This document shows, piece after piece, positions 732-53,953 of a DNA stretch of 64,000 nucleotides. The stretch is from positions 868,001-932,000 of the forward strand of contig NZ_JAIWJA010000001.1 in assembly GCF_020515695.1 (NCBI RefSeq), read 5' to 3'. This DNA is from Pseudomonas sp. MWU16-30317 (GTDB lineage Bacteria; Pseudomonadota; Gammaproteobacteria; Pseudomonadales; Pseudomonadaceae). A model generated the notes under the pieces. The model was given only the letters and a program-made list of their open reading frames with translations, was not told the DNA's origin and did no database searches. The position numbers and the translations under genes were made by a program. Each line of letters starts with the position of its first letter. The first letter of the stretch is position 1.

Positions 732-2389
732 GCGGGGACTCCTTGTTTGAGTGGGGTGGCGGCCTGCGGTGGGCGGCGCCCGGGGATCGCGTCCAGCAGT
801 TCGCGGGTATAGGGGTGTTGCGGGGTGTCGAGCACCTCACTGGCAGCGCCGCGCTCGACCACCTGGCCCTGGCGCAACACCACTACCTGGTGAGCGAGGC
901 TGGCGACCACGGCCAGGTCGTGGGACACCAGCACGTAGGCGATGCCCAGGTCGGCTTGCAGGCTGCGCAACAAGTCGAGGATTTGCGCTTGCACCGAGAC
1001 GTCCAATGCCGAAACCGGCTCGTCGAGCAATAGCAGCTCGGGCTGCAGCGCCAGCGCACGGGCGATGGCGACCCGCTGGCGTTGACCGCCGGACAGCTCG
1101 CGGGGCAAGCGATCCAGGTAGCTGGCCGGTAACTGCACCTGATCCATCAATTTGCGTGCCGCCTGGTACAACGCCTCGCCTTTGACCAGTCCGAAGGACT
1201 GCAGCGGCTCGACCACGCTCTGGAAAATCGTGAAACGCGGATCCAGGGCGGCGAAGGGGTTCTGCTGCACCAGCTGCATGCGCTGGCGGACGGGCCGGAA
1301 CTGCTTCCAGCTCAAGTCGGTGACGTCCTGGCCATCGAAGCGCACCCGGCCCGCGCTCGGCGCCTCGAGGCCCAGGGCGATACGCAGACTGGTGCTTTTG
1401 CCCGAGCCAGACTCGCCGACGATGGCCAGGGTTTGTCCGGGGAACACTTCCAGGCTGAGGCCTTGCAGCGCATTAAAGCTTTGCGCCTGGCCTTTACGGG
1501 CGGGCAACCGGTAGTGCTTGCTGATGTTCTCCAGGCTCAACAGCGGCTGGCGACTGGTGTTGCCGACCGGCACTGGGCGTGGCCGGTTGCCGAACGCCGG
1601 TGCGGCGGCCAGCAGTTCACGGGTATAGGGTTGACGCGGGTTGGAGAGCACCTGGCGGGCCGGCCCCTGCTCGACCAATTCACCGCTCTTCATCACCAAC
1701 ACGCGGTCGGCCCGATCGGCCGCCACGCCCAGGTCATGGGTAATGATCAACAACGAGATACCGCGGGCCTGTACCAGTTGCTCGAGGTGATCGAGGATGC
1801 GCCGCTGCACGGTCACGTCCAGCGCACTGGTGGGCTCGTCGGCGATGATCACTTGCGGGTTGCCGGCCAGCGCGATAGCGATCAACACCCGCTGGCGCAT
1901 GCCCCCCGACAATTCGTGCGGATACTGCCGCGCGCGCAGCTCGGGGTTGTCCAGGCCCACCTGTTCAAGCAGTTGCAGCACGTCGGCGTCCAGCGCCGGA
2001 TAACGGCGGCCGTGGGCCTGGATCAGGCTCTCGCCAATCTGCCGGCCGATGCTCAGGGTCGGGTTAAGGCTGACCATCGGGTCCTGGGGCACCAGCCCGA
2101 TTACCCGGCCGCGCAACTGGCGCTTGAGCTTGTCGTTGGCATGGCTGATATCGTGCCCGGCGACGCGCAAGCTGCCGCCATCGACGCGCGCGCTTGCCGG
2201 CAGCAGGCCCATCAGCGCGCTGGCCAGGGTGGTCTTGCCCGAACCGGACTCGCCGACGATGGCCAGGGTTTCGCCGGCCACCAAGTTGAAGGACAGGTTG
2301 CGCACCGCGGCAGTCACGCGCCCGCCGCTGTGGTAGCTGACGCTGAGGTTGTCGACGTCGATCAAAGGGTGTGTCGTCGAGGTGCTCAT
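728..2389 (-). CDS. Peptide/nickel-type ABC transporter, fused double ATPase subunit
   Basis: About 553 residues with two ABC ATPase domains in tandem, equivalent to DppD plus DppF in one chain (GsiA/YejF layout). Each half shows a Walker A (GESGSGKTT, then GESGSGKST), an LSGG signature (ELSGGMRQR, then ELSGGQRQR) and a Walker B ([11 protein letters not shown], then [11 protein letters not shown]). It energises import through the two downstream-listed permeases. The start [12 protein letters not shown] at 2389 is preferred because it overlaps the stop of the preceding permease gene; a longer reading frame runs into that permease. The stop overlaps the monooxygenase start. Confidence 0.93.
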
Positions 2390-3288
2390 CGTTCCAGCTC
2401 CTCGAAAGTACGGGCGATGTGGTTGAGGCTGAACACCACCAGCACCACATACAACCCGGGCAACAACGACACCCAGGGCGCGGTGATCAGGAACTGCCGG
2501 CCGTTGGCGATCAGAGTGCCCCATTCGGCCGCCGGTGGTTCGGCGCCGAAGCCGAGGAAACTCAAGCCGGCAGTCGCGAGGATGGCCGCGCCGAAGTCCA
2601 GGGTGGCGAGCACCGCCACTGGGCCCCAGGCGTTGGGCAGTACGTGCCGCAGCAGCGTGCGCCCCCAGCTGGCCCCGCCCAGGCGCGCGGCCTCGACGTA
2701 GGGCAGGGTCTTGACCCGCAGCACTTCAGCGCGGGTGGTACGGGCGAAACCGGGGATGATGCCCACGCCGACCGCAATCGCCACCGGCAGCGTACCGAAA
2801 CCGATGGCCGTTACGATCGCCAGCGCCAGCAGCAGGCCGGGGAGGGCCAGCATGACGTCGATGAAGCGCATGATCACCGCATCCACCCGCCCGCCGATAA
2901 AGCCCGACACGATACCCAGGCCCAGGCCGCTGATCAGCGCCAGGCCGACCGCCAGTAGCGCGGCCTCCACCGACAGCCGCGAGCCATACAGCACGCGGGT
3001 GTAGAGATCCCTGCCCAGTTCATCGGTACCGAACCAATGAGCAGCGCCAGGCGCCAACAGCTTGGCGGCGGGCGCAGTGGCGTAGGGATCGAGGCCGCTG
3101 AACAACCACGGCATCAGCCCTGCCAACAGGGTAAAGGCGATGAGCACTGCGGCCAGCACGAAGCCCGGACGGCGAAGCAGGGGCGCGGCTACATCAAGCA
3201 GGCGCTGCCAACGACGGCGCGGCTGCCACAGCGCTGACTCGGCAGGTTGGGTGTGGGCACGGCTGGATAATTGATCGAAGGCGGTCAT
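2386..3288 (-). CDS. ABC transporter permease, DppC-like
   Basis: 300 residues, a BPD-type inner-membrane permease of the DppC/OppC family. It has an N-terminal cytoplasmic stretch, a first membrane helix (LAAVLIAFTLLAGLMPWLF), the family's FGTDELGRDLYTRVLYGSR segment, and the EAA loop EAARLGGASWGRTLLRHVLPN that docks on the ATPase. It pairs with the DppB-like subunit, whose stop lies three bases upstream of this ATG. Its own stop overlaps the ATPase start. Length is normal for the family. Confidence 0.93.
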   Translation of the reverse strand: MTAFDQLSSRAHTQPAESALWQPRRRWQRLLDVAAPLLRRPGFVLAAVLIAFTLLAGLMPWLFSGLDPYATAPAAKLLAPGAAHWFGTDELGRDLYTRVLYGSRLSVEAALLAVGLALISGLGLGIVSGFIGGRVDAVIMRFIDVMLALPGLLLALAIVTAIGFGTLPVAIAVGVGIIPGFARTTRAEVLRVKTLPYVEAARLGGASWGRTLLRHVLPNAWGPVAVLATLDFGAAILATAGLSFLGFGAEPPAAEWGTLIANGRQFLITAPWVSLLPGLYVVLVVFSLNHIARTFEELER

Positions 3289-3291
3289 GGT

Positions 3292-4242
3292 TCAAGTCAC
3301 CTTGGGGGCGTGAGTGATACGCGGGTCGAGCACCGGATACAGCAGGTCGACCAGCAGATTGACCAGTACGAAGGCTGCGGCGGACACCGTCACGATCCCC
3401 AGTACCACCGGAATGTCCTGACGCATCACGGCTTCCTGGACCAGACGGCCGACACCGTTGCGAGCGAAGATGGTTTCGACCAGTACGGCGCCGGACACCG
3501 TGTTGCCGACCTGCAGGCCGATAAGGGTCAGCAGTGGCAATGCAGCGTTGCGCAGGCCGTGGCGTGCCTGCACTTGCGCGCGGCTCAGGCCTTTGGCGTA
3601 GGCGGTGACGATGTAGGGTTCACGCCACACATCGGCGAAGCCGCGCTGCAGCACTTGCGCATACACCGCGGCGCTGGGAATCGCCAGAGTCACGGCGGGG
3701 AGGACCAGGCTCGAAAAGCCGATGCTGCCCGTGGACGGGAACCAGCCCAGGCCGAAGGCGAATACCTGGATCAGCAACAAGCCCATCCAGAACACCGGCA
3801 CCGAAAAGCCCAAGGCCGGCAAGCGGGCAAGCGCGGTTTTCAACGGCTGCCAGCGCACATAGGCGGCCAGGTAGGCTAGGCCGATACCACCGAGCAACGA
3901 CAGGAGGATCGCGAAGCCGGCCAGCGACAGCGTCTGCGGCAGGCGTTCGGCGAGGATCGAGGTCACCGGCCGATTGAGCGTCAGCGATTGCCCCAGATCG
4001 CCGTGTAACACGCCCCAGAGCAAGTGCACATAGCGCTGGATCAATCCTTGGTCGAGGCCGTAATAGGCGCGAGCCTTGGCCAACTGCTCGGGCGACAGAG
4101 AGTCGACCTCCATCCCGGACGCACTGAGCATGATCGACAACGGATCGCCGGGCAGCAGGTACAGGATGAAATAGGTGACCGTATAGGCGCCCCACAGCAC
4201 CAGCCCGGCTTGGGCGATCCGACCGAGCAGGTAGCGCTTCAT
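3292..4242 (-). CDS. ABC transporter permease, DppB-like
   Basis: 316 residues, partner permease of the DppB/OppB family. The N terminus MKRYLLGRIAQAGLVLWGAYTV is a typical first membrane helix, followed by YLLPGDPLS, the long periplasmic loop with YGLDQGLIQRYVHLL, and the EAA-like loop AYAKGLSRAQVQARHGLRNA. The ATG overlaps the stop of the binding-protein gene (ATGA at 4239-4242), showing tight translational coupling. Substrate range cannot be read from the permease; neighbours point to sulfur-containing organics. Confidence 0.93.
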   Translation of the reverse strand: MKRYLLGRIAQAGLVLWGAYTVTYFILYLLPGDPLSIMLSASGMEVDSLSPEQLAKARAYYGLDQGLIQRYVHLLWGVLHGDLGQSLTLNRPVTSILAERLPQTLSLAGFAILLSLLGGIGLAYLAAYVRWQPLKTALARLPALGFSVPVFWMGLLLIQVFAFGLGWFPSTGSIGFSSLVLPAVTLAIPSAAVYAQVLQRGFADVWREPYIVTAYAKGLSRAQVQARHGLRNAALPLLTLIGLQVGNTVSGAVLVETIFARNGVGRLVQEAVMRQDIPVVLGIVTVSAAAFVLVNLLVDLLYPVLDPRITHAPKVT

Positions 4243-5903
4243 GGCTTGATCTCGATGTCGTTGAGGAACGCGAAGCCCTCGGCGCTCCAGTGGAAGTTCT
4301 GCACCCGCTTGGCGGTGGCAGCCTGCCAGACGCGTTCGTAGACCGGAATCGCCGAGCCTTGGTCGATCAACAGATCCTGCAAGCCGTCATAGGCCTGGGC
4401 ACGTTGTTCGGAGGTGGTCGCGGTGAGGCCGGCGTCGAACAATGCGGTCGCCTGGCTGAGGATCGCCGGTGGGTAGATGTTGGTGGCCACGGTTGCGCTG
4501 TAGGCGCTGCGTGGGTCGAGGATGGTTTGCAGGATGATTGGATCGGCGCGGGTCATGTAGGTGGACGTCAGGTCGTAGTTGCCTGAGGCGTTGGCCGCCG
4601 CCCATTCGGCTTTGGTCTGCACGCGCAGCTTGAGGTCGACGCCGATCTTGCGCAGCTGGTCCTGGATCAGCACGTCGCCTGGGGTCTCCTTGATGGCCAG
4701 GTTGTCGACCAGGGTCAAACGCTTGCCATCCTTGGCGCGGTAGCCGTCGGCACCTTTGAGCCAGCCGGCCTTGTCGAGCAGTTGTTCGGCGCCTTGCGGG
4801 TCGTAGCCGAGTTTGGCGCCTTGACTGCGGAAATACGGGGTGCTGACGTCGAACACGCCATCGACCACCGGGAAGTCCTGGCTGTACACGGTGCTGGCGT
4901 AGGTCTTGCGGTCGATGGCCTTGAGCAGCGCCAGGCGCACGTTGATGTCCGCCAGAATGCGCGTGCCGCTGGTGTTGGGGTACAGATTGAGCGCCGGGCC
5001 GGGCAGCGAACGGCTCTGGATGGTCGCGCCCTTGCTCTGGAACAACTTGAGATCGACCTCCGAAAACGGATCGCGCGGCCACAGAATGTCCACTTGGCCC
5101 TGTACGAACTGGCCGTTGCGTACGCTTTCTTCCGGTACATAGGTGACATCGACCGCGGCCAGGTGCGCTTCGCCCTGGTTCTGCACGTTGGCAGACGCCC
5201 AGGCGTAGCCTTTGCGCCGGGTCAGGCGCAGACCGGATTCGGGGGTGTAGTGGTCGAGGACGAACGGGCCAGTGCCGATGATCGCACCCAGCGAGCGCTC
5301 CTTGGCCGTCTTGCGATAGGACTCCGGGGCCAGGATCGCCAGGTTGGTGGTCGAGGTCGCCTGCAGGAATCCGGCGTTGGGCTTTGCCAGCACCAGCTTG
5401 ACGGTCAGCGGATCAATCACTTCAGCGTGGTCATAACCGGCCAGATAGGTGGCGCCAAAGGCGCTGGGCAGGGCGGCTGCGAAGGCTTTGTCGGTATCGA
5501 AGGCGGTTTTTACCGCTTGGGCATCGAAGGCTTCACCGTTACTGAACGTCACGCCCTTGCGCAGGTGGAAGGTGTATTCGCGCGCATCAGCGCTGATATC
5601 CCAGCGCTCGGCGAGCCAAGGAATGATCTTGCCCGTTTGCGGGTCCTGGTCGGTCAATGATTCGGCAATGTTGCGCAGTACGACGCGGTGCTCGAGCCAA
5701 TAGACCTGAAAGGGATCGAGGCTCACCAACTGGGTGTTGTCCGAGAAGAAGGCGATCTTCAAGGTACTGGCAGCCTGCGCATCGGCCTGCGAGGGCGAGC
5801 AGCCAGGCAAGGCCGCGGCACCCGCCAGCAGCATGGCCAGAGCCAGTGCAGTGCGGGGCGCGGTGGGGCAGGCCAGGGAACGGTGCAGGAAGGGGATGAG
5901 CAT
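4239..5903 (-). CDS. ABC transporter substrate-binding lipoprotein (SBP family 5)
   Basis: 554 residues. The N terminus carries a lipoprotein signal with a hydrophobic core and the lipobox LPGC at about residues 32-35, so the mature protein should be anchored to a membrane on the periplasmic side. The body matches DppA/OppA-like family 5 proteins: VLRNIAESLTDQDPQTG, the YTFHLRKGVTFSNG motif, and GAIIGTGPFVLDHY. It is the first gene of the five-gene minus-strand operon. No strong ribosome site precedes the ATG. Several Pseudomonas paralogues of this type sit beside flavin monooxygenases; that link is established for organosulfur use and inferred here. Confidence 0.92.
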   Translation of the reverse strand: MLIPFLHRSLACPTAPRTALALAMLLAGAAALPGCSPSQADAQAASTLKIAFFSDNTQLVSLDPFQVYWLEHRVVLRNIAESLTDQDPQTGKIIPWLAERWDISADAREYTFHLRKGVTFSNGEAFDAQAVKTAFDTDKAFAAALPSAFGATYLAGYDHAEVIDPLTVKLVLAKPNAGFLQATSTTNLAILAPESYRKTAKERSLGAIIGTGPFVLDHYTPESGLRLTRRKGYAWASANVQNQGEAHLAAVDVTYVPEESVRNGQFVQGQVDILWPRDPFSEVDLKLFQSKGATIQSRSLPGPALNLYPNTSGTRILADINVRLALLKAIDRKTYASTVYSQDFPVVDGVFDVSTPYFRSQGAKLGYDPQGAEQLLDKAGWLKGADGYRAKDGKRLTLVDNLAIKETPGDVLIQDQLRKIGVDLKLRVQTKAEWAAANASGNYDLTSTYMTRADPIILQTILDPRSAYSATVATNIYPPAILSQATALFDAGLTATTSEQRAQAYDGLQDLLIDQGSAIPVYERVWQAATAKRVQNFHWSAEGFAFLNDIEIKP

Positions 5904-15300: not shown

Positions 15301-15340
15301 GTACTTACCTAAAGGTGCATACTATTCAAATAGAATGCAC
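15301..15340. promoter_or_regulatory. Candidate HxlR operator and SDR promoter region
   Basis: GTACTTACCT followed by GGTGCATAC resembles the GTAC-containing interrupted dyads bound by HxlR proteins. It overlaps a second inverted repeat, GTGCAT/ATGCAC enclosing CTATT/AATAG (15315-15340). Both lie 41-80 bases before the SDR start, where a repressor would act. Confidence 0.5.
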
Positions 15341-15380
15341 AGCTCTACAGTTGGTTCTCAACTTTCTACGGGAAACGCTC

Positions 15381-16130
15381 ATGAGCAGGCTCAACGGTAA
15401 AATCGCAGTGATCACCGGTGGCAACAGCGGCATCGGCCTTGCCAGCGCCATACGCTTTGCGGCAGAAGGCGCACGCGTGGTGATCATCGGTCGCCGCCAG
15501 GATGAATTGGACAAAGCCTTGGTGCTGATCGGCGCTGACGCAGTCGCGATCCAGGGCGACATCTCCAACCTGAAAGATCTGGACCGGATCTTCACAGACA
15601 TCAAAGCTACCCAAGGCAGGATCGACGTTTTGTTCGCTAACGCCGGGCTGGGAGAGTTTCAGCCGCTCGGATCGATCACCGAAGCATCATTTGACCTCAC
15701 GTTTGGCATCAACGTGAAAGGCACGCTGTTCACTGTGCAAAAAGCATTGCCACTGATGGGCGATGGCGGCTCGATAATCCTCACCGGGTCGACGACGGGC
15801 ACTATGGGCACGCCGGCGTTCAGCGTGTACAGCGCCACCAAGGCCGCGTTGCGTAACTTTGCCAGGAGCTGGGCGCTTGATCTGAAAGGCACCGGTATTC
15901 GCGTCAATGTGCTTTCACCTGGACCGATCTCGACCCCGGGCCTTGACCTCGCGCTTTCAAGCCTGGGCCAAACGGACGTGCTTATCGAGGGCATGGCCAC
16001 GCAGGTGCCACTGGGACGTATTGGCCAACCGGAAGAAGTCGCGGCGGCGGCGTTGTTCCTGGCGTCGGATGAGAGCAGCTTCATGACCGGCAGTGAGATG
16101 TTCGTTGATGGAGGGGCTGCTCAGGTTTGA
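15381..16130 (+). CDS. SDR-family oxidoreductase
   Basis: 249 residues, a classical short-chain dehydrogenase. TGGNSGIG is the cofactor motif, followed by FANAG in place of NNAG, the Ser in [11 protein letters not shown], and the YSATKAAL Tyr-Lys pair. The [10 protein letters not shown] and [20 protein letters not shown] segments are also typical. MSRLNG at 15381 is preferred because GGGAA lies just upstream and the operator-like dyads lie before it. It probably belonged to an HxlR-controlled pair; the regulator is now decayed. Substrate unknown. Confidence 0.93.
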
Positions 16131-16201: not shown

Positions 16202-16229
16202 ACTACGCATAATGTATATTATGTTAAAT
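16202..16229. other. dif: Chromosome dimer resolution site dif
   Basis: 28 bases in the 11-6-11 layout of XerCD sites. The XerC arm is ACTACGCATAA, the centre TGTATA and the XerD arm TTATGTTAAAT. The last 23 bases, from GCGCATAA or its equivalent onward, agree with the E. coli dif consensus that I know, apart from the variable outer XerC bases. XerC and XerD resolve chromosome dimers here under FtsK control. It marks the replication terminus and is also a known landing site for Xer-dependent mobile elements. Accessory genes start immediately to its right. Confidence 0.9.
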
Positions 16230-16699
16230 CGCGTATTTGGGTGTGGGCTGTGGTGCTGTTGTCACCAGTGAGTAAAAACCGTGGTTTGCCTCGAATTACC
16301 AGAATCCAACCAAATCAACGAGTTCCTCGCCCTACCTCCTGTGCCTTCGAGATTTTCCTTGGCTCTCGTCAGCGATTCCTCAGATTTGAAAACAAGACTT
16401 CTAATCCTCACCTCAAAGGCACCAACTATTTCCGCTTAAGCCTCGCCTGACACTCGCCAATGCGATCTTTGTCGTCCTGAACACTTGAGTGTAGGCTTTC
16501 TATGAGGAACTGGCTGACCGTTCAGCGCCCACTCCGTCATGAGTCCCAACGATGAATCCCCGTGACGTTTTTAGGCCCGCTGCACTGACCCGGTTGACCT
16601 GGTTGCCATGACTTGGTTACTTGGCTAACCCAGCAGACCCGGTTGCTCAGTTCCCGCTTACCTCAAGCGGTCAACGTGTTCGCATAGGACTTGTAATCC
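16230..16699. other. Gene-free stretch between dif and the accessory genes
   Basis: 470 bases with no supported protein. The only notable structure is the cluster of short repeats at 16587-16645. The composition shifts to lower GC immediately after dif, consistent with a junction of acquired DNA. Confidence 0.5.
16587..16645 (+). repeat. Cluster of GACYYGGTTR short direct repeats
   Basis: GACCCGGTTG occurs at 16587 and 16636, with variants GACCTGGTTG (16596), GACTTGGTTA (16610) and ACTTGGCTA (16619) between. This is an iteron-like array just ahead of the recombinase-like gene at 16700, so it may bind that protein or regulate it. Confidence 0.6.
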
Positions 16700-18028
16700 A
16701 TGGCTGAGCCCACAGTTCCTTATCCTCTGTTCCCACCCTTGGGTTTACTCAACGACCATGCCCACGTTGAGCAGCCCATAAACCTGGAAGTTCGGCGCCG
16801 CTTGGAGTTAGTTCCCGAGCATCTGAATGCGCTGAAAGCCTGGCAAACTGGCATGGGCTTTCTTATGAAGCAATCTCGACGGTCTGGATTCCAAGACCGT
16901 CACTACAAGATGCTTTGCCCGATCATAGAGTCGATGATGCACTGGAGTTGGTCAATCCGAGGGATAGCCTTGGCTGATTGGGACAGCGCCGACGCAAGAG
17001 CTTTTATAGAGTTCATCATGAGACCGCCGATTGCTTGGGTCACGACACCGGGCTGTAGTCGGTACTCTAAAAAGACCCGGGGGAATTTTGCAAACAAGCC
17101 TCTTGATCCGCTATGGCGTCCGATCATCCGACAGACTCTCTCTGGCGATGATCCAGGGCTGAGCTCTAAACACCATCGGAACTGGTTCCTTACGCATGGA
17201 CGGGAATATTTCGCTTTTACTGATTCGCTGCTCACTGACGCCGGTATCGGGACTGGAAATCCTTTTCGGGACTTATCACCTAAAGACTTCGAAGCCCGCA
17301 CAGAAAATCGCCGGACAATACTCACGTCGGAGCAACTCTCCGACCTAATGGAGATTACTGAGTCGCTTGCAAACTACAGTGAGAAATCGGAACCGTTTTT
17401 GTTCATCGTCGCAGCGGCCGTCCACTCGGACATTCCTATGCGGGCGCTCACTGCCACACAGACCATCAAGCCCACTTTCTCTTACTTCAAACCCCGAGAC
17501 TTCCAAGTATCCGATCCAGTCCAAAGCCAGCCAAAAACTGAATTTGCCAGCTCTTACTTGGCGTCACGGCTGGCATTTGCCAAGGGCCCAGGCTTCTTCG
17601 AGAGTCCGCTTTACCTTGGTCGCCGGTTCCACCTTTCTGCTCCATTCCAGCCCTACTTCCAGCGCTATGCGCAATTCAGACACCAGCATGATCCATTGCT
17701 GAGTGCGCATAGCTACCTGCTTCCTTTGATGCACGGCATTGATGCTTATGGCTACGGCAGCCTCATCGAAAAGTTCAGCGAGTTTACCGCCAGCATCTTA
17801 CAAGACCTCCGCGCTAGGCCTGCATCAGCTAGGATGCACTGGAAAGGTTCGGACAAGCTTGACCCCAGTGCTTCACTGACATTTGCCGAGCTGCGTGAAT
17901 CGGCAAAGCGCGCAGGCCTCATTCCCAAGGGCTTCGTCTCGCAGGATGTCGGGGCTAACGACAATGTTTGGCCAGATATTGGAATTCGCCAAGACATATC
18001 AAAATCCCACTGGTTTCAGACTCACTGA
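16700..18028 (+). CDS. Recombinase-like protein lacking a catalytic domain, adjacent to dif
   Basis: 442 residues, not firmly recognised. The N-terminal half (about 40-110) resembles the SAM-like core-binding domain of tyrosine recombinases, with LNALKAWQTGMGFLMKQS and WDSADARAFIEFIM. The C-terminal half has the general layout of such proteins (IPMRALTATQ, SYLLPLMHG, YGYGSLIEKF), but I see no Arg/His-x-x-Arg/Tyr catalytic set. It could be a degenerate integrase, a Xer-cofactor or an unrelated protein. Its position 470 bases from dif supports a role in element integration. The length and intact frame argue against recent decay. Confidence 0.55.
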   Translation: MAEPTVPYPLFPPLGLLNDHAHVEQPINLEVRRRLELVPEHLNALKAWQTGMGFLMKQSRRSGFQDRHYKMLCPIIESMMHWSWSIRGIALADWDSADARAFIEFIMRPPIAWVTTPGCSRYSKKTRGNFANKPLDPLWRPIIRQTLSGDDPGLSSKHHRNWFLTHGREYFAFTDSLLTDAGIGTGNPFRDLSPKDFEARTENRRTILTSEQLSDLMEITESLANYSEKSEPFLFIVAAAVHSDIPMRALTATQTIKPTFSYFKPRDFQVSDPVQSQPKTEFASSYLASRLAFAKGPGFFESPLYLGRRFHLSAPFQPYFQRYAQFRHQHDPLLSAHSYLLPLMHGIDAYGYGSLIEKFSEFTASILQDLRARPASARMHWKGSDKLDPSASLTFAELRESAKRAGLIPKGFVSQDVGANDNVWPDIGIRQDISKSHWFQTH

Positions 18029-19420: not shown

Positions 19421-21517
19421 ATGATCAGACGGTTTCGGCTGGAGCAGAAGTCGCTTTACGAGAAACTGGTCATTGCTCAGCGCTTGTCGGACATGTTGGA
19501 AAAATTCCTCGACGGGCGTCGGGCTCCGCTAGAAATTGGTGCTGAGCAAGGCGGTATCGAAGAGTGGGATGATGTTGTAATCGTCCATTCACGAGATTCA
19601 TTCGAGCACCTGCAAATCAAGCGCCAGAGCACGCCCTTCTGCACCAAAGACCCCGATATGCGGGTATATCTGGCCAAACTCGCAGAGAAGAGACTCGCCC
19701 GCGAAAAGAGCAAAGCCGCCAAAGCTGCTAAAGCCGCCAAGGGTGGCAAGGCTGCCTCCGTACCCCTCGTTACGGAAAAGCCTGTTACGGACAAGCCTAT
19801 TGCTACGGATGATGATATTGGTGCGGACGAAGCTGTTGCCACACTGGTTGCCGTAGACGATCCCGCAAATGCTGACGATGCTGCTGACGCGGCCAAGGAT
19901 AGCCTTTCCGTTCTTGATTCGGCCTTTTCAAGCTTAGCCAGGCACGCTCGCGCCGGCACATTTGCCCAATTGCCTGAACGTCGATTTCAGCTGACGCTTT
20001 TAGGGGCACACCTAAGCATCAAGGACAAGCTGACCGTTAACCATCTGGACGAGCTGTGTAAGCTGTGCCGCCAGATAGGACTCAATCCCGACGACTTGGC
20101 GAAGCGTGTCGACGGGCCGACAACCCGGGCTCATCTCTGGCTTACGACCTGGTGTGGCTTTGAAGATTGGACGCAGATCATCGACACCCTCAAGCGTGTC
20201 ACGGTCGTCTGCGTGGGGAACGACGCGACATTACAGCAGCGCTCAGTCGAATCCCTGGGCAGGCATTTCACCAATCCGGAACGCGCCCTCGAACAGCTTA
20301 TTTCGGTGATCACCGCCGAGGTCTCTGACGTTTCGGCCCTGGGGTGTCATGCGATTATCCATGAGCTCAGAGACGAGCTTCGCCCCGATATCGAAACTTG
20401 GGCTCAATACCTGCTAGGGGATGAAGTCCAACCTTCCGGCAAGACCTGGTCGTTTTCTGGCACCCATGATCTCGGTGCGCTCTCCCCCCGAACAGCCCAG
20501 GGTGTCGTGAATCACCTTTGGGGCAGTGCACCAGGGAATCGGAAGCTTAGGGTGTATGCACCGTACTCGCCTCCCATAGGAGCGAACCTTACGCTTCCAT
20601 CCGCAATATTGAGAATGGCGCTGCATCTGCCACACGGCAGTCAAAGCCTGATGCAGGGCGCGCAAACCTGGCGCACCAATGTTGGCCATGAAGTCGGGCA
20701 CACCCTCGGTTGCGCCGAGAGCGACCTTAAAGATCTCTCGTGGATGGATAACACTGAGGCGCTCGTGAGCTCCCTGGATCATGAGTTCAAGACCCTGAGT
20801 GCTGCTCGAGCGGAAGCTGTAGCGCTCGCAAGTGCCATGGACGACTTGGTGTGGCAACGGCTAACTCAAAGTGTTTCTGCAAAGCTAAACGCCGTAAAAG
20901 ATTCTGACCTTGCTGATGCCATGGAAGCGATTTGGCTAGAGTGGTTGGACGGATTCACGAAGAATCCGGAGAGCCGTCGTCAATTTCTGGAGCAGCTTCT
21001 ATACCCGGAGACGGAAGGGAAAAATGCTACCCACGCACTTCGCCTTGGCCCTCGCACCGTAGACCTGCTGGTTAGCGCCGTCGAACTGCTTTTGCTGGTC
21101 GCCGTAGGGGTTGGAGGTGCAGGCACCGCTTGGAAGCATTTCCCGGAGTTTGGGGAGGTTCTGAGTATTGCCCTCAAGTACTGGTCTGGCCCGGCAACTG
21201 TAGCTCCTGAAGTCCGTGAGATATCCGACGATCTGTTGATCAACGTTATCGGCCCGTCCCCTGCCCCAGTCGTGATCCTGTCTGGCGTCAGCACTCCCCC
21301 TTCAGAACTCTTGAATACAGGTATGGCTGACGATGCAGAGTCGGCCACCAGCATGGCTGCAGAACGCCGACCACATCTGCTCGTGACCCGCTCTGGCGTA
21401 TTCAACCAGTTGCGCTTCGGCACGCTGGCCACAGTGCGGCAACACTTTAGTAAACAATTGCAAGATCGACTGGTGGCGCGCCAGTCCGCCATCGACACGA
21501 ACACGAAAGGAATCTGA
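19421..21517 (+). CDS. lmuA: Lamassu-type effector with N-terminal Cap4-like nuclease (LmuA/DdmA)
   Basis: 698 residues. Residues 1-90 resemble the Cap4/DUF4297 nuclease head used in ABC-3C/Lamassu effectors: an early Glu (LEIGAE), the acidic pair WDDVVI at 49-54 and the HLQIKRQ strand at 63-69 form a PD-(D/E)XK-like set. Residues about 96-165 are an Ala/Lys-rich then acidic low-complexity linker (KAAKAAKAAKGGKAAS). The long C-terminal part is the helical region that contacts the SMC partner in known systems. The first of three tightly coupled genes. Upon sensing foreign DNA, known homologues cut DNA and cause abortive infection or plasmid loss. The three-gene layout supports the family call more than any single motif. 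Confidence 0.78.
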   Translation: MIRRFRLEQKSLYEKLVIAQRLSDMLEKFLDGRRAPLEIGAEQGGIEEWDDVVIVHSRDSFEHLQIKRQSTPFCTKDPDMRVYLAKLAEKRLAREKSKAAKAAKAAKGGKAASVPLVTEKPVTDKPIATDDDIGADEAVATLVAVDDPANADDAADAAKDSLSVLDSAFSSLARHARAGTFAQLPERRFQLTLLGAHLSIKDKLTVNHLDELCKLCRQIGLNPDDLAKRVDGPTTRAHLWLTTWCGFEDWTQIIDTLKRVTVVCVGNDATLQQRSVESLGRHFTNPERALEQLISVITAEVSDVSALGCHAIIHELRDELRPDIETWAQYLLGDEVQPSGKTWSFSGTHDLGALSPRTAQGVVNHLWGSAPGNRKLRVYAPYSPPIGANLTLPSAILRMALHLPHGSQSLMQGAQTWRTNVGHEVGHTLGCAESDLKDLSWMDNTEALVSSLDHEFKTLSAARAEAVALASAMDDLVWQRLTQSVSAKLNAVKDSDLADAMEAIWLEWLDGFTKNPESRRQFLEQLLYPETEGKNATHALRLGPRTVDLLVSAVELLLLVAVGVGGAGTAWKHFPEFGEVLSIALKYWSGPATVAPEVREISDDLLINVIGPSPAPVVILSGVSTPPSELLNTGMADDAESATSMAAERRPHLLVTRSGVFNQLRFGTLATVRQHFSKQLQDRLVARQSAIDTNTKGI

Positions 21518-21518
21518 C

Positions 21519-22118
21519 ATGCTAACAATCTCGGAGATGGTGGAAGCCATCTCGAACCGTGCCGAAGGTCGCTATGAGGTCGCCTATCCGGACTCGGTGG
21601 AACTGCCATCGCCGTTGGCTGAGATCGCGAGCGCAGGGATGCAGCTGAAACGGGTTAATCAGGAAGGTGCGGGCTGGCGGACTGTCTTGATCGCCGCCCT
21701 TCCCTACGACGTGTCTAAAATCCAGGGAGCGTTTCGGTGGGCGGCAGATGTCCGTGACATGCTCCCGGAGCCGCAAACTGCTGACCTCTACATGTTCATG
21801 CTCATTGAGGGTGTTGCGTCTGAGGACGCTGCTCGGCTCGAGACGGACGACCGCTTCTGCAGAAAGGTAGTCGTCAGAGAGGGCGAAGACGCCGGTTCCT
21901 TTCTCGACCGCAGCTTCCTTGCGACACTTTCGATTCCCGGTAGCTCCGACAGCATTAGTGACCCATTGTCAGCTTCCCTCAGCGCCCTCGTCCTGGCGCA
22001 TACGTGGGTCAAGCCGCATCGCGATGAATGGCGCGAGCTCCTGCTTTCCGGCAAATCGGGTGGCGAAATTGCTGAGGCCCTTAGGATCTCGGCGTTTGGC
22101 GAGGAGGACGAGAAATGA
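21519..22118 (+). CDS. lmuC: Lamassu-type middle subunit (LmuC/DdmB-like)
   Basis: 199 residues. It starts one base after the effector stop and its own stop overlaps the SMC start (ATGA), so all three proteins are translationally coupled. The sequence (LTISEMVEAISNRAEG at the start, WAADVRDMLPEPQTADLYMF in the middle, LLSGKSGGEIAEALR at the end) has no catalytic signature. The size and position match the small accessory subunit of Lamassu/DdmABC and ABC-3C middle components, which bridges the SMC ATPase and effector. Assignment rests on context. Confidence 0.75.
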   Translation: MLTISEMVEAISNRAEGRYEVAYPDSVELPSPLAEIASAGMQLKRVNQEGAGWRTVLIAALPYDVSKIQGAFRWAADVRDMLPEPQTADLYMFMLIEGVASEDAARLETDDRFCRKVVVREGEDAGSFLDRSFLATLSIPGSSDSISDPLSASLSALVLAHTWVKPHRDEWRELLLSGKSGGEIAEALRISAFGEEDEK

Positions 22119-25100
22119 ATCAATTAAAGTCCATAACGCTCTCGAACATCCGCCGGTTTGGCGCCGAAACGAAGATTGAGCTCAGCCGCGGGGCCACGAT
22201 CTTGCTCGCCCCCAATGGCACTGGGAAAACCGCGATCTTCGAAGCGGTTGAGTTCGCATTGACGGGCAAGATCTCTCGCCTCGACGGAAACCTCGTTCCA
22301 ATCATCCGAGACTCTCAATCCATGGCTCGAGTGAGCCTTGATTTCGGTGATCTGCAAGCCAGCGCTCAAGTCAACAAAAGTGGGGACGTTGAGACAACGG
22401 GTGATCTGAGCCTTCTATTCCCCTCGAAAGATCCTGCCGACATACCCTTTCTGCTCAGGCTCACCCACCTGCTTGATCAGCGCGAGGGTGAATGGCTGGT
22501 CAAGGCAGATCCAAAGGTCGCGGGCTCCCAGTTGGAACGGTTGCCGATTGGCAAGGACGGCAGCCAGGTAAGCTCTGCTCTCGCGAGCATCCGGCGGGCG
22601 CTCACAGAGCAGATCAAGCAAGCGAAAGCGTCGCTGGATTCGCTCGAAGCCGAGTTTGCAGAATGGCAAAGCCTGAGCCTTGACCGAGACCAGGCGGCTG
22701 TCCAAACCCAAGGGGCGCTGCGCAGCAGGGAAAGCATTGCTGAGTCGATATCGGACATTGCTCAACAGGCGCAAAGCCTCGACCAATTGCCCTCCGGGCT
22801 GCTCGTACCTCCATTGGGCCAAGATGGATTGGAGACGGTGCATGATGCACTGGAGCAACTGGTTCAAAACAAGCTCGAGCGACTTCGTGAACAGATCAAG
22901 GAATTGGCTGAGGTCGACGGGCTCATAGGCCGGTTTGTGTCTGAACAAGCTCGTTCAGAGCAGCTCAGTACCGAGTTCCTCTCCGCGACGCAGGAACTGA
23001 ACCAGAAGAGAGAACATCGCTCGGTGGCCGTGGCAGCTCTTGAGCAGCTACAACGAGAGTTGGTCGCTGCAGAAACTGAACGCGACACGATTGCTCAGCA
23101 ACTCAATCGGTACGTGAATGAGACCAACGCCAAGGAGACGGTTGAGCAACGCCAGCAGGTTCTGAAGACAACCGACGACGCCCTAACCATCGCTGAATCG
23201 CAAGCTTCTACGGCGCGCAGAATGCACGAAGGACACGAGCAGCTCGGTGTTCAACATGACCTGATCAATGGTCAGCGCAAGACGCTGCTGCAAATAGACT
23301 CCGACCTCCTCACAGCTCAAGAACTCCTGGATCGCTGGGAGCTGACTCTTCAGCGAGTTGCAGAAGTTACCGGCACCATCAGCGGCGAAGCAGCACATGA
23401 AGAGCTTCTCAGCGAACAGCTTCGTGTCGCGCTAGAGGCCAGAGCGACCGCTGAGGAAGAAGATCAGGCCGCCAAGGGCCATCATGAAAATCTGACATCT
23501 GCGGCTGACTCAATACGCCAAGCTGTTGCAGCCATCGCGGCCCATTTGCCTCCCGACCGCGGTGATTGCCCGCTGTGTGGCGAAGAACATGGCGCGGTCG
23601 GCTTACATGAGCGTGTCGCCAAGGCGCTAGCGGCTATCGACCCGAATATCGTCGAAGCCGAACGACGTGTAAAAAGGGCCGCGGATGTTCTCCGAGAATC
23701 TACTGAGGCAGTGACGAACGCTGAAGCAGAACTCAGAGCATGTCAGTACAGGATTATTGACCTAGAGTCGCAGCAGGGATACCTGACAGCCGATATCGTC
23801 GAGATCAGCTTGAACAATCTGCTCGGCGGCGACACGGTTCCCTTGGCGAAAGAGTCCATCCGGCTTCGCGTTGATGCCAATGCCGCTGCGAAGCTTCAAC
23901 TGGACGATAAACAGCGCAACCTCGCTCCGCGGGTAAGCTCAGAAGTCTTTGAGCAGACAAGGAATGAATACGACTCCGCTGTTCGCGCAGTGGACTCCGC
24001 GCGGCAGGCCCGTTCAGAGGCCAGTAGCCGGCTGGAGCAAGCGACTGCGGCGTTGGCAGCGATCACCGCAGACGCCCCGCCAGCTCAATCCTTGGAAGAT
24101 CTGTCTACCGCGCAGAACCAGACCGCCAATCAGCTCGTTGAGTTAGGTGCCAAGATAATTGCCGAACAGACTGCCTTGGATCGTCAGCAGGCCCAACTGA
24201 CCGATGCCACGATCGCTGCAGCTGGTTTGGAAACACAGCTGTCTGAAGCGCAAGCACGATTGGCTACCATCAGGGCGTCCTGGCGTCAGCTCTCATTCGC
24301 CGGCGATCCCACAGCCGCGGTTGCGAGCAGCCATGAGGCTCAGTTGCAGTCCACCAGCACTGAGCTAACTAGGCACTCGGAAACGCTTCAGACCATCAAG
24401 ATCGAGATCGGAGCGTGGAGCAAGATAGAGCAGGCCCGGCTCGCTCAGGGGCTTCTTGATCGCCGGCGCGGCGAGCGGTCGGAGGATGAGTTCTCGACCC
24501 ACCTGAATCAACAGGTCGAATCGAAGCGCACGGGCGTGCAGCGCCTATCGCAATTGTCTGCAGCGATGGAGTCGCTCAACCAGTCCCTTTCCTCCGAAAT
24601 CGCGAACGTCCAGAAAAACGTTCAGGCAGTGATGCCTCGGTGGCAAGCATTGCTCAAACGCGTGGTCAGGGAGCAAAGGTTTACCGGGACGAATCTGAGT
24701 TTCCGAAGCTCCTATCAAAAGGCACGTGCTGAGGTATCTGTGCCGCTCCACGGGGGGTTAGCCCCAGTACCCTCGATAGCCAGCGAGGCTCAACTGACGG
24801 ATCTGCAACTGACGTTCCTGCTTTCAATGGCCTTGGAACATCAGTGGTCTCCGTGGCGCGGGCTCCTCCTTGATGATCCCACACAGCATCACGATCTGGT
24901 GCATGCCGCGTCCGTCTTTGATGTGCTTCGCGACTACATCATTAATCATGATTTCCAAGTGGTCATCGCGACGCACGATGCCCTTCAGGCCCGCTACTTC
25001 ATGCGCAAACTGCAGAATGATGGAATCGACGCACGCATATGGTCACTTGTTCCGACCCCTGAGGGCGTAACCGCGGTGGAAACCCCTTGGCCGGGTAGAA

Positions 25101-25150
25101 GCCAGATCACGATTGACGAGCAGTCACCACCGGCGCTCGACGATGTGTGA
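22115..25150 (+). CDS. lmuB: Lamassu-type SMC/Rad50-like ATPase (LmuB/DdmC)
   Basis: 1011 residues with Rad50/SMC architecture. Walker A LLAPNGTGKT sits at about 30-39, then two long coiled-coil arms (roughly 165-470 and 500-800) flank a zinc hook with CPLC at about 484-487. The C-terminal lobe holds the Walker B GLLLDDPTQHHD (about 915) and the switch His in VVIATHD (about 950). The second acidic residue after Walker B is Asp-Pro rather than the more common Glu. In known systems this protein senses DNA ends or replication intermediates and activates the nuclease subunit. Last gene of the operon; a hairpin follows at 25183. Confidence 0.85.
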   Translation: MNQLKSITLSNIRRFGAETKIELSRGATILLAPNGTGKTAIFEAVEFALTGKISRLDGNLVPIIRDSQSMARVSLDFGDLQASAQVNKSGDVETTGDLSLLFPSKDPADIPFLLRLTHLLDQREGEWLVKADPKVAGSQLERLPIGKDGSQVSSALASIRRALTEQIKQAKASLDSLEAEFAEWQSLSLDRDQAAVQTQGALRSRESIAESISDIAQQAQSLDQLPSGLLVPPLGQDGLETVHDALEQLVQNKLERLREQIKELAEVDGLIGRFVSEQARSEQLSTEFLSATQELNQKREHRSVAVAALEQLQRELVAAETERDTIAQQLNRYVNETNAKETVEQRQQVLKTTDDALTIAESQASTARRMHEGHEQLGVQHDLINGQRKTLLQIDSDLLTAQELLDRWELTLQRVAEVTGTISGEAAHEELLSEQLRVALEARATAEEEDQAAKGHHENLTSAADSIRQAVAAIAAHLPPDRGDCPLCGEEHGAVGLHERVAKALAAIDPNIVEAERRVKRAADVLRESTEAVTNAEAELRACQYRIIDLESQQGYLTADIVEISLNNLLGGDTVPLAKESIRLRVDANAAAKLQLDDKQRNLAPRVSSEVFEQTRNEYDSAVRAVDSARQARSEASSRLEQATAALAAITADAPPAQSLEDLSTAQNQTANQLVELGAKIIAEQTALDRQQAQLTDATIAAAGLETQLSEAQARLATIRASWRQLSFAGDPTAAVASSHEAQLQSTSTELTRHSETLQTIKIEIGAWSKIEQARLAQGLLDRRRGERSEDEFSTHLNQQVESKRTGVQRLSQLSAAMESLNQSLSSEIANVQKNVQAVMPRWQALLKRVVREQRFTGTNLSFRSSYQKARAEVSVPLHGGLAPVPSIASEAQLTDLQLTFLLSMALEHQWSPWRGLLLDDPTQHHDLVHAASVFDVLRDYIINHDFQVVIATHDALQARYFMRKLQNDGIDARIWSLVPTPEGVTAVETPWPGRSQITIDEQSPPALDDV

Positions 25151-31763: not shown

Positions 31764-34700
31764 TCATAGCGACAGCGCTTGCTCCTCGCCTTCAATCGTT
31801 AAAGTGTTCAGGACTTCAATGTCTTCATCCTCATCATCCTGGGAGGAAGCGACTGCGGGTGACCATTCGCGTAGCTCAACGACAGCTGGGAGTTTGTCCA
31901 AGGCGTGCGTTGGTTCGATACCGAGGTCGGCCAGGCGCTGGAGGAGCTCGGCGAAGATTTCTTCTTTATGCATGCTCCAGGATGAGGCGAAGCACCGCCA
32001 GAACGTCCACCCTGCACGCTCAAGGATACGCTGGCGGTTCATGTCCGCCTCCCATCGATCAGGGCCATGGAAGGCGTCGCCGTCACACTCAATGGCCAAG
32101 CGATTATCGTTGGCGCCCTCAACGACCATGTCGAGTCTGAATGCGCCGCTCTTCACCTGCGGGATCACACGGTATCCACGCTCAACCAATCGGGTGAACA
32201 CTTGCTGCTCAAAGCCTGACTCGCACAGCTTGATAAGGCCGTCCTGATCGACCTCCTCCTCAGTCAGCGGTTCGCTGAAGTACTCAAGGAGCGTTCGGCG
32301 CACGTCTTTTTGGGAGAGGTGATCAAGGGTAACCGATCGAATCAGGTACATCCTGTCGCGCGCACGGCTGGCTGCCACGTTGAACCGTTGCTCGGCAGCA
32401 TTGCCCGAGAGCGGGTGACAATTCTCCGGGTCAGCGACGAGGGAAATGAAGATGATATCGCGCTCGCTTCCCTGGAAGGTGCTGGCGTCGCCACAGGCAA
32501 ATTCGCGGGCATGGAGCTCTGCTGCAGGGCAGCGTTCGCGCACCAGTGAGTCGATGAATTTTGCTTGCTCCATGCCCCCCAGCAGCGTCACCACACCAAT
32601 CGAGCGACCCGCATATTTGTCGTTCTTGATGAGCGCCTGGATTTCCTCAGCGATAGCTTCAGCCTCAAGCTTGTTGCAGCCCTTCTTGTTCCGCACCCCG
32701 TCCTTGACGTAGATGTCCACCAGCGGTGGATCGAGACGTTCAGACGGGCGAGGGATTCGAAGGGGCTGGATCGCGCCACCGTAGAACTGGTTGGAGTAGG
32801 AAATGATGGGAGGGACGCAGCGGAAATGCTCACGCAGCATAACCATGTGGCCCGCGAAGACTCGGGACGCCAAATCGTACAGTGATTTATCCGGTGTCAT
32901 GTCCGCCCCATAGGGCTGGTCGTTCAGATACCGGTTGCGAAGTTCGCCAATCCGTTTACCCGATTTGAAACCACCATCGGGAGAGACCTGCTTGTCATCC
33001 CCTACTACCAGTACCTTCTTGGCTCTGACGATCGCGGGCAGAGCCCATAGATCTGACTGGCTCGCCTCATCGACAATCACCAGATCGAATGCGCCGATCT
33101 CTGCCGGCATGGATTCAGATATCTTGGCGTGACTCATGATCCAGCAAGGCACAGCGCCGGCGGCGTCCTGCATGCACTGCTGGGCGTCACGGCGGTAACG
33201 TTCCGCGTTCGGGCCTGTCCCTTGCCCAATCTTGCGTATGGCCGTCGAGTAGCCGGCGAGTGCTTGCAGCACCATAGGACTGGCATTGGCTTTGGTGGAA
33301 AGCCACGCTGCTCGGCTCACGACCTCCCGGTACATGCGAGCCAGGCCCGTTTCAAGTTTTACTCGTTTGCTATTGAGCTCAACGAGCTCGTGGCGCGCTT
33401 CAATGCTCTCAAGATGGGAGCGAATCCGCGCGTGTTGCCACGCCTCCTTCCAACTGCTTGGGAGGGCCAGGTCTTCAGCACCGTTCTCAACGGGGACAGT
33501 CAACAAGCGCTCGGACAGCTTTTGCGCCCCAGCCTTCATCACTTGGTGTGCGCCTTCGCGCACATGATTCAAATGTCCCCCCAGGGCTTTGATCCGCTGC
33601 AATTCTGTGAGCAGGTCTACGTACAGGGATACGATCCGATGCGAATCCTGATCCGGGCTGCCCAAACACTCCAGGACGAACGACCGGAGTCGGTGGGCAA
33701 CAGGGCTATCGCCCGCAACTTGGGCTTGCAGAATCGCGAGCGCGGCTGCAGCGAGACTGAGATCAAATCGCGCCAGGTTCTGGTTGAGCTGATCTCGTAG
33801 GCCACGTATTTCTGCGATTGTCAGGCGATGCATGCTATCCGGCGCATCCGCGAAGACGGCTTCGCAGAGCGGCTGCACCTTGTCAACGTAGTGTGCAGTG
33901 AGATCGACGGCTGCCTGGACTGCGATGATGGTCAGCTCCAGTTCCCGGAGATGAGCCATGCCCGATTGAAGTCGAGGGATCCCCAGAGTTTCAGCCAATG
34001 GGTTCCACCTTGCAGAGAAGGATCGCACGTCAGCGTGAAGCTTCAGATAGTCCAGGACAGTCTTCCACTGCTCAGAAGACTTTGGCGCCGAGCCATTGAT
34101 ACGGACGTGACTGATGTGTGCCTTGGCTTGAGAGGCTCCAAAGCTCATGAGGCCAAATGGCTTACCTGTGTCGGCAGCTCTTTCGACAGCCTCGGCCGTT
34201 TTCTCGCAATCCAAAGCCTCATCTGGGAACTCAACAAAGTTTTCCAGCATCACCTTACGGCGTTGTATCAAAGCCTGTGCCACCGGGAGCATGCCTACCA
34301 GGACAGAGAGTTCACTGTCGTAGCGGCGACCTGCGGCCTTGAGGCGCAGCTCCAGCGACCAAGGAATTTCGGACTCTCCGCCCTCGTGCAAGACCTCCAG
34401 TTTCTCTTCGCACAAACTCAGTTCTAGAACCAGCTCCCTGGCGGCTGCAATAACGATTTCGCTGTCGGACTTTAGAGGCTTCAGCTCACCCTGACCCAAG
34501 GCATGTTCAAGAGACTTCAGCTTGCAGAGTGAGCCGTGGAGTTTGCCAATGTCGGCCGCTGCCGGTAATTGCTCAACTTCCGGCAAGCTGGCGTCGACGT
34601 ACACAAGGTCATTTCCAAGCTCGCGGCGAGCTTGTCTCAAGTTCTTACCGACTTCACCATCAAAGGGCAGCGAATGTTCAGGGGATAATGACAGTACGTC

Positions 34701-36347: not shown

Positions 36348-36473
36348 GTTCATACTCCTTAACAATTCAGGGCGCGGTCACCGGTAAATATGGCGCCAAG
36401 GATGCCATATTGCTTGCCGCCATAGTTTCAAAATCGCTCGGTTCCGACGAGTGTCCGGGCGCCCTGCTCGGCT

Positions 36474-37745: not shown

Positions 37746-37773
37746 AAGGCTCTCCTACGATTTCGTACTGTGT

Positions 37774-37786
37774 TACATGACATGTA
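37774..37786. promoter_or_regulatory. Candidate KfrA operator
   Basis: TACATGACATGTA is a perfect 13-base palindrome 29 bases upstream of the kfrA-like ATG, in the divergent promoter shared with the recombinase gene. A second partial GTA/TAC pair follows. KfrA autoregulation is established for plasmid members; this site is inferred. Confidence 0.5.
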
Positions 37787-37942
37787 TTTACGTATCACCA
37801 TTCATCAATATTACGCCCTTTGATCTCGCGTAGCTAGGAGACCATAATGGAGACTTATGGCTTCTTCACTGACGAAACGGTCTTTAGGCGCCGGTAAAAG
37901 TGTGGAAAGCTGGGATCACGCGGATTTTGAAGGCAAAGGGCG

Positions 37943-41869: not shown

Positions 41870-42015
41870 CCTTGGCTCCGCGGGCAATTTTGTAAAAGTC
41901 GTCTATTCAGCCGCACTTCTCAGCGGGCCGCAACTTGAAGGTTGCTTATCGCCACTACTGTCGCCTGCGTCCGCTCCACGGCTGTGGGCAGCCAAGGCTC
42001 GATCTTGACGTCGCG

Positions 42016-42396: not shown

Positions 42397-42557
42397 TATC
42401 TTGCTCCTTGCTGACATATGGCCGATTTCAAGGCTCCGTTAGGCGGAGCAACTTGCATTATCACAAATATTGAACCAGCCTCAACGTCGGCATTTTCACG
42501 GTGTTTTTTTGAAGCGCATGGCCCACTGGCGTTGTGTGCGCGCATTTCGGAGGGCCT

Positions 42558-51854: not shown

Positions 51855-51864
51855 GCTGCATTCC

Positions 51865-53826: not shown

Positions 53827-53953
53827 TGCGCAATCCCTCGCATCTGGGTCATGAAGTACCATTTATACAGGCAATCAGCCACTAATGGCCAACCTATGAG
53901 CGTCATCAAGCCTCCGCACATGATCGATTCAAAGTCGGCAGTTGCTTAAGGGC

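Follow-up and report, generated by a model that had tools for sequence, protein, structure and literature searches.

The DNA to the right of the chromosomal dif site in Pseudomonas sp. MWU16-30317 is, with a probability of about 0.85, mainly one complete Tn7-like (heteromeric-transposase) transposon with antiphage cargo, which lies 30 bp past the XerD arm. At the sequence level, this reading is based on inverted ends, a target-site duplication (TSD), genes for TnsB, TnsC/TniB and TniQ at the far end, a near-fixed distance from dif, one orientation, and three more elements in other genomes.

The dif site and its neighbourhood

The 28-mer ACTACGCATAATGTATATTATGTTAAAT was read at 16202-16229 on the + strand of the window (the whole 64,000-nucleotide stretch of DNA that was analysed; positions beyond 64000 are counted in the same frame). 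The features at this edge are:

15315-16130, + strand: SDR oxidoreductase gene, conserved left neighbour of dif (Pfam; joint alignment with dif in 13 other genomes)
16202-16229, + strand: chromosomal dif (XerC arm 16202-16212, spacer 16213-16218, XerD arm 16219-16229)
16223-16249, + strand: last 7 bp of dif and flank, with a copy at 83302 (beyond the window), 25/27 identical
16230-16259, + strand: spacer of 30 bp that separates dif from the transposon and ends in the left TSD (16255-16259, GCTGT, 5 bp)

Arms and spacer are assigned by the XerC-6-XerD layout, and the differences from the E. coli dif are confined to XerC-arm positions 1, 2 and 4. The 24-bp core had its sole copy in the window at this position with up to 3 mismatches allowed (0 in 100 shuffles), and dif was single copy across the whole 6.58-Mb genome at the same tolerance. 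Within 416 kb of the contig, the next-best match showed 9 mismatches in 28 positions, and no further copy of the TTATGTTAAA core was found. One match to the dif pattern was present in 88 of 99 genus genomes (own included, up to 2 mismatches), and a looser core matched in 287 of 298 (own included), with two matches only in G218. The second match in G218 (C2:94802-94824, one mismatch) lies on another contig, possibly as the dif of a plasmid. Over the 216 kb left of dif, the KOPS-type motif GGGNAGGG was counted 37 times in forward and 2 times in reverse orientation; over the 200 kb right of it, the counts were 7 forward and 50 reverse. Its polarity thus switches at 16202-16229, indicating a working terminus dif. 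A 28-bp XerC-6-XerD sequence, present once and located at the KOPS polarity switch, this site is the functional terminus dif. No tRNA genes were found in the 64-kb window.

The SDR gene stops at 16130, with 71 bases between it and dif. When 298 genomes were searched at the DNA level, this gene and dif aligned together in 13 other genomes; two of the 13 alignments end one base before the end of dif, and all of them stop within 25 bp past it. To the right of dif, those relatives carry either a kinase gene directly or differing inserts. The kinase gene (thymidylate-kinase-like, named from its protein sequence only) ends 20, 20, 25, 36 and 120 bp past dif in G017, G090, G026, G048 and G005, respectively. 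Its distance from dif is about 7 kb in G020, 18 kb in G196 and 20 kb in G140, and the homologue in the own genome is located at 107369-107979, 91 kb away. The position of this gene, next to dif in five relatives and 91 kb off here, points to acquisition of the block right of dif. The conserved SDR gene on the left and the variable right side across relatives indicate a hot spot on the XerD side of dif in this lineage. In 10-kb bins, the GC content was about 0.59-0.65 over the 180 kb left of dif, 0.54-0.58 from 20 to 80 kb, and at least 0.59 past 80 kb.

A preliminary description of this DNA had identified dif at 16202-16229, and the uniqueness in the genome, the genus-wide pattern and the KOPS flip agree with it; no better dif exists elsewhere in the genome at up to 3 mismatches. 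It had also placed the edge of an acquired region at dif and proposed a cargo hot spot at the terminus. Both proposals were borne out by the relatives, which have the kinase gene 20-120 bp after dif or different inserts at this place, and not the same genes in conserved order. The statement that defence genes start right of dif was correct in that such genes are there, but the first gene (16700-18028) is recombinase-like.

The Tn7-like transposon

The element and its genes are listed below.

16260-64000, running on to 76234, no strand assigned: Tn7-like transposon, part within the window (ends, inverted repeat, TSD, genes)
16260-16370, + strand: transposon left end, TGTCACCAGTGAGTAAAAACCG... 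(nhmmer class; distance to dif 26-31 bp in 18 loci)
16700-18028, + strand: P0006, 442 aa, inactivated Xer-like tyrosine recombinase, proposed dif-reading target selector (family alignment, lost residues, profile)
19421-25150, + strand: cargo, three-gene ABC-3C / Lamassu-like defence operon
31764-36365, - strand: cargo, SF1 helicase with MTES_1575 nuclease, antiphage-like
36675-37745, - strand: P0002, KfrA_N coiled-coil protein, possible accessory factor of a cointegrate-resolution module
37943-38920, + strand: P0001, intact tyrosine recombinase, possible resolvase
38958-41887, - strand: cargo, Septu (PtuB, PtuA)
42534-48305, + strand: cargo, pPIWI-RE module (PprRE, PprDinG, PprPIWI)
48857-53862, - strand: cargo, Qat (QatD, C, B, A)
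55167-56705, + strand: cargo, defence reverse transcriptase DRT8
69739-72402, - strand: P0008, TniQ-domain protein, 887 aa (Pfam)
72411-73274, - strand: P0009, TniB/TnsC ATPase (VchTnsC, 2.4e-10)
73277-75184, - strand: P0010, TnsB/TniA transposase (PDB TnsB, E 1.8e-33)
75214-75924, - strand: P0011, 236 aa, unknown (no Pfam or PDB match)

The transposon is 59,975 bp long (16260-76234), and its ends are inverted and of the form TGT...ACA. The right end, TGTGACCAGCCCTTAAAAACCG, finishes at 76234 and has 17/22 inverted identity with the left end. It is followed by GCTGT at 76235-76239, which matches the 5-bp GCTGT on the left. TGT...ACA ends with a 5-bp duplication are the signature of Tn7. The duplication is likewise called a signature of Tn7-like transposition in the excerpted text of PMC10293859. 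The element combines such ends and duplication with TnsB/TniA, TnsC/TniB and TniQ/TnsD proteins. No TnsA endonuclease was recognised among the element genes tested; P0011, encoded beside tnsB, had no Pfam or PDB match. By sequence, the TniQ protein P0008 has a long N-terminal part resembling a second P-loop ATPase ahead of the TniQ domain. KOPS inside the element numbered 0 forward and 12 reverse, with 2.7 and 4.2 expected from 60 simulations. The own left end had no blastn match at E 1e-3 in the phage and plasmid record collections.

Several genes of unknown kind are interspersed among the cargo systems, and the intact recombinase P0001 is encoded divergently from the KfrA_N protein P0002. 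The same pair in the same layout was found 6-29 kb right of dif in G023, G053, G056, G064 and G303, and its copies were broken in G163. We also considered this pair as the integrase of the dif island and rejected it: P0001 had matches in 225 of 298 genus genomes, often tens to hundreds of kb from dif among the matches listed. P0001-type recombinases among those matches lay, by eye, mostly less than about 400 kb from dif, and the own genome has two copies of the KfrA_N/tyrosine recombinase pair, at 36675-38920 and C13:776012 (108 kb left of dif). The distribution of the pair suggests a widespread terminus module. It may parallel TnpS/TnpT of Tn4651. Since no TnsA was recognised and the element contains an intact tyrosine recombinase with a KfrA-like partner, it may move by replication followed by cointegrate resolution. 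The excerpted text of PMC8649781 describes Tn7-like branches that lack tnsA and have tyrosine resolvases, and the gene set of the own element fits these branches.

P0006 and its family

The gene for P0006 is the nearest to dif in the element, and its reading frame is intact. Neither Pfam nor NCBIfam gave a match to the protein. At E up to 1e-5, 46 of the 298 genus genomes, the own one among them, contain a homologue. Among the 51 matches, 35 shared a contig with a dif of known position; 33 of the 35 lay no more than 5 kb from dif, and every one of the 33 was transcribed away from it. The other 16 were unplaced, and in 2 of them the match and dif were on different contigs. For eight matches in six genomes (G271, three in G270, G170, G136, G049 and G193), dif was known only from the match locus, which favours near ones. 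Where dif was located independently, a P0006-family match lay within 5 kb of it in 25 of 27 genomes, again always transcribed away, with 17 on the right of dif and 8 on the left. The exceptions were G122 (16 kb) and G299 (108 kb). The chance of a match lying within 5 kb of dif is about 0.0017 each, and the odds for dif adjacency were unchanged after the six match-dependent genomes were dropped. The type is also found in PfAR1 (P. fluorescens) and JUb42 (Pseudomonas sp.), where the gene is about 500 bp right of dif and a TGTCACC end lies 27 and 30 bp off, respectively.

The R-K-H-R-H-Y residues were intact in family members left of dif in G020, G205, G026, G309, G223 and G291 and right of dif in G225, G242 and G032. 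Most of them are missing from P0006 and from the remaining right-side classes. The six catalytic Xer-like genes on the left lie 0.4-0.8 kb from dif and point away from it, and we noticed no second recombinase beside them. The catalytic family members scored best with the XerC model, yet far under its cut-off. A profile of four inactive proteins matched a profile of four catalytic proteins with a probability of 98.8 (E 8.5e-17) over residues 3-265, leaving the C-terminal part unaligned. Among the catalytic proteins compared, three came from copies not placed beside dif. P0006 is therefore like TnsF in being a tyrosine recombinase relative without catalytic residues, according to this profile and the residue check. 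Simple dN/dS values of 0.12-0.27 across seven inactive pairs (0.18 for own versus G271) indicate that the inactive genes are maintained by purifying selection. Judged from its sequence, P0006 is predicted to be a catalytically dead Xer-like tyrosine recombinase under purifying selection. An assignment of P0006 as GmtY of the gamma-mobile-trio was tried and rejected, the two having no meaningful similarity. The AlphaFold model of P0006 (pLDDT 35) was set aside.

Insertions beside dif in other genomes

TnsB was searched in 20 genomes with dif-side traces; 11 matched at 1e-10 and 9 had no match. It was located right of dif, 57-144 kb away, in the own genome, G271, G314, G056, G053 and G024, and elsewhere in the remaining ones (36 kb left of dif in G011, 3.3 Mb away in G170, and on other contigs in G156, G006 and G045). 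With TnsB absent or far in these searched genomes, many dif-side traces may be remnants or divergent elements. TnsB and TniQ showed the same order and strand in the own genome, G271, G314, G056 and G053.

An ACA end with a TSD was found beside TnsB in four of the five genomes tested, namely the own genome (TSD GCTGT, inverted-end identity 17/22), G271 (GCGCT, 19/22), G056 (GATCT, 19/22) and G053 (ACTCG, 17/22). From their coordinates, these complete elements measure 60.0, 72.6, 78.1 and 120.0 kb, respectively. Complete elements are thus present at dif in three further species, each with a different TSD. About 0.15 matches per locus are expected by chance for an ACA + TSD 8-mer before the end identity is required; two extra matches, in the own genome and G056, had end identities of 7/22 and 5/22. 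No right end with its TSD was found in G314, which has P0006, TnsB and TniQ. G024, with TnsB 144 kb right of dif, was left out of the ACA + TSD test; the pattern scan found no end there, and its left end does not begin with TGTC. The TnsB proteins of G056 and G053 have only 28% identity to the own TnsB, which suggests at least two transposon lineages at this place.

Profiles of three left-end classes gave 23 matches in about 2.0 Mb of dif-anchored, partly overlapping sequence, all on the + strand. Twenty of the 23 start 54-70 bp from the start of dif; 14 of these 20 had built the profiles, and the new ones were in G006, G062, G087, G163, PfAR1 and JUb42. The other three were at +2.8 kb in G045 and at +60.0 and +67.1 kb in the own genome. 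The TGTC start was 26-31 bp past the end of dif in 18 loci.

Prevalence was counted in 81 of the 87 dif-bearing genomes besides the own one (set with up to 2 mismatches); the counts are descriptive and not a test, as some flanks are short or one-sided and related genomes are non-independent samples. A P0006-family frame was present within 6 kb of dif in 19/81 genomes (25 frames, 25/25 pointing away from dif), a GInt-type leader at dif in 8/81, and a Tn7-like left end at dif in 11/81, two of them partial. Any of these three types of trace was found in 33/81 genomes, 29 on the XerD side and 4 on the left.

The stack at dif and GInt-type residents

The sequence beyond the transposon suggests that the block is a stack, with the complete Tn7-like element followed by a unit at 76240 and then by a second-class end further right. 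The unit at 76240-83301 (beyond the window) contains a Tn7-like left end at 76240, an M48 peptidase and an 1820-aa DUF4011 helicase/nuclease/WGR protein. It is 87% identical to a G017 segment right of the kinase gene and probably represents a defence unit with its own mobility. After the repeat at 83302, a Tn7-like left end of the second class is present at 83337. This direct repeat consists of GTTAAAT and 20 bp at 16223 and 83302; ten simulated sequences gave at best 7-9 mismatches.

GInt-type left-end sequence directly abuts dif in 16 loci examined, 11 of which built the profile. An intact copy in G209 (L243, 10140-15448) has four genes of 422, 506, 707 and 132 aa. By gene number, order and sizes, compared with the descriptions in the excerpted text of PMC5385486, this other class of element at dif is a ginABCD-type GInt. 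GInt-type right ends finish with the last 7 bp of dif, GTTAAAT, in G161 and G070 and with the variant GTTCAAT in G196 and G087. At about +8.98 to +9.10 kb from dif in G161 (L168), a GInt-type right end with GTTAAAT is followed immediately by an older left end, an arrangement that looks like tandem accretion at dif. The window element was also considered as a GInt and rejected; with the GInt recombinase P0004 as query, no relative was found in the own genome at E 1e-10.

In three records of P. aeruginosa megaplasmids, the GInt-type left end also occurs, next to a degenerate dif and ahead of a recombinase gene. In one megaplasmid (NZ_CP095921.1, L180, about 1657-4600), the degenerate dif is followed by a GInt-type leader and recombinase genes, a layout suggesting that megaplasmids too carry a dif-type site of this kind. 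The P. antarctica plasmid pP27494_1 (L181, 5001-5060) has a partial dif-like stretch and 36 bp of GInt-type leader, and gmtY lies about 1.3 kb from this stretch, transcribed away. Gamma-mobile-trio elements may use dif-like sites too.

Target selection and alternative explanations

By analogy with TnsF as presented in excerpts of PMC10293859, we consider it rather probable that the dead Xer-like recombinase P0006 binds to dif and acts together with TniQ to bring in TnsC and TnsB, which would place the insertion just outside dif. TnsB would then join the ends at a point 25 bp past the XerD arm, with a stagger of 5 bp. In this process dif would stay whole and single, and XerCD and FtsK could still work. 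With dif intact and single, XerCD would be unable to excise the element, and the host need not be harmed. The orientation of the element relative to dif is fixed, and this could explain why the own element has KOPS only in right-arm polarity, as dif fixes its orientation in the replichore. Against the selector role, the P0006 gene is at the end opposite tniQ. We lean slightly towards the wider proposal that an Xer-like recombinase was captured, its catalysis killed and its dif binding kept, making dif a near-universal Tn7 attachment site, with the fixed orientation giving right-polarity KOPS. GInts and catalytic solo recombinases would have converged on the same edges, and the terminus would be a stacked docking bay for defence cargo.

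The preliminary description had suggested a Xer-exploiting element (IMEX) put in at dif by the host XerCD, a suggestion that now appears very improbable. The block does begin near dif, and the repeat of its last 7 bp and flank at 83302 would fit a part of the stack having been added at the dif edge. However, this repeat is all that was found when a second dif copy was sought at the far end, and there is no second dif genome-wide at up to 3 mismatches (the best other match within 416 kb being the one with 9/28). The element has Tn7-like transposase genes of its own, inverted ends and a TSD outside dif, and it starts 30 bp from dif and not within the XerCD crossover spacer. Site-specific targeting might be absent altogether if the terminus tolerates insertions and those beside dif are noticed since dif is easily spotted. 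Terminus regions are indeed variable, ordinary metabolic segments (judged from protein sequences) are found right of dif in G196 and G140, and the left-end profiles were built from dif-side sequences. We nevertheless find this explanation hardly credible, given ends at 26-31 bp in 18 loci on one side and in one orientation, four different TSDs at that distance, and the nearness of P0006-family matches to dif (no more than 5 kb in 25 of the 27 placed independently, at a chance of about 0.0017 each).

Two other explanations are possible but somewhat unlikely. In one, the long TniQ alone recognises dif, and P0006 does another job, such as regulation, exclusion of rival dif-targeting elements or protection of dif. 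TnsD proteins with long C-terminal extensions are target readers according to excerpts of PMC10293859, and the TniQ here is 887 aa long, with a C-terminal part weakly shared with the TniQs of G056 and G053 (23%), that is, between two lineages. However, in several left-end classes no gene lies nearer to dif than that of the dead recombinase, which is under purifying selection and belongs to a family with catalytic members at dif as well. The other, to which we assign a similar low probability, is that a tyrosine recombinase, using the last 7 bp of dif in the manner of GInts, moved the 67-kb stack (16223-83301) as a whole, with the Tn7-like element as a passenger. The direct repeat at 16223 and 83302, 25/27 identical, would fit such a unit, as would the GInt-type right ends, which finish on these 7 bp in G161 and G070 and on the variant in G196 and G087, whereas the Tn7-like element has its own TSD inside the stack and the own genome lacks a P0004 relative at E 1e-10.

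Comparison with known systems

The comparisons in this section refer to excerpts of the cited papers. The closest parallel is Tn6022 with TnsF, together with Tsy (PMC10293859): a Tn7-like transposon whose target is selected by a separate protein, an inactivated tyrosine recombinase. Catalytic homologues are known there from another element, and catalytic relatives of P0006 likewise occur at the same site. Their target is comM and not dif. TnsF has N-terminal zinc fingers and is encoded in an operon with a short TniQ, in contrast to the P0006 gene, which is not beside tniQ; the two were likened by description only. Tn7 and Tn7-like elements in general (PMC8649781) share TnsB, TnsC, TniQ, insertion into safe sites and defence cargo with the own element, whose attachment site differs in being the chromosome-dimer resolution site.

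GInt islands with ginABCD (PMC5385486) have the same four-gene make-up and short imperfect repeats as the GInt-type class at dif. In the excerpts, that paper names ssb and the genes for an ABC transporter and a ribonucleotide reductase as sites, whereas the dif-side GInts, which are distinct from the window element, abut the XerD arm. IS1202-family elements at pdif and dif (PMC10132070) are similar in that they are non-Xer, lie in one orientation at a fixed 5 bp from dif and make a 5-bp TSD. However, they are 1.5-kb insertion sequences with one transposase, located on the XerC side in Acinetobacter. Dif is likewise the integration site of IMEX of the LME-1 type (PMC9765430), but LME-1 has a dif mimic of its own and enters dif through site-specific recombination, as opposed to the single dif and self-coded transposase here. 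The whole word "dif" does not occur in the texts of PMC10293859, PMC8649781 and PMC5385486. In the open-licence literature (main texts, in part), none of the matches listed describes a Tn7-like or GInt insertion at dif.

Significance

What appears to be new is the proposed homing of Tn7-like transposons on dif with a TnsF-like dead recombinase; Tn7-like transposons and TnsF were already known. Dif, matched in 287 of the 298 genus genomes, is not easily lost, and a dif-reading element would therefore have a safe, near-universal landing site. If the proposal is true, P0006 would be a second, independent dead tyrosine recombinase acting as a Tn7 target selector, and the idea of co-opted recombinases would become testable. 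A dif-reading protein could also compete with dimer resolution, with interference with XerCD and FtsK in question. Such a transposon is a possible tool for putting large cargo beside dif without disrupting it. For Pseudomonas, the proposal would help to explain the variable, here defence-rich, DNA beside dif.
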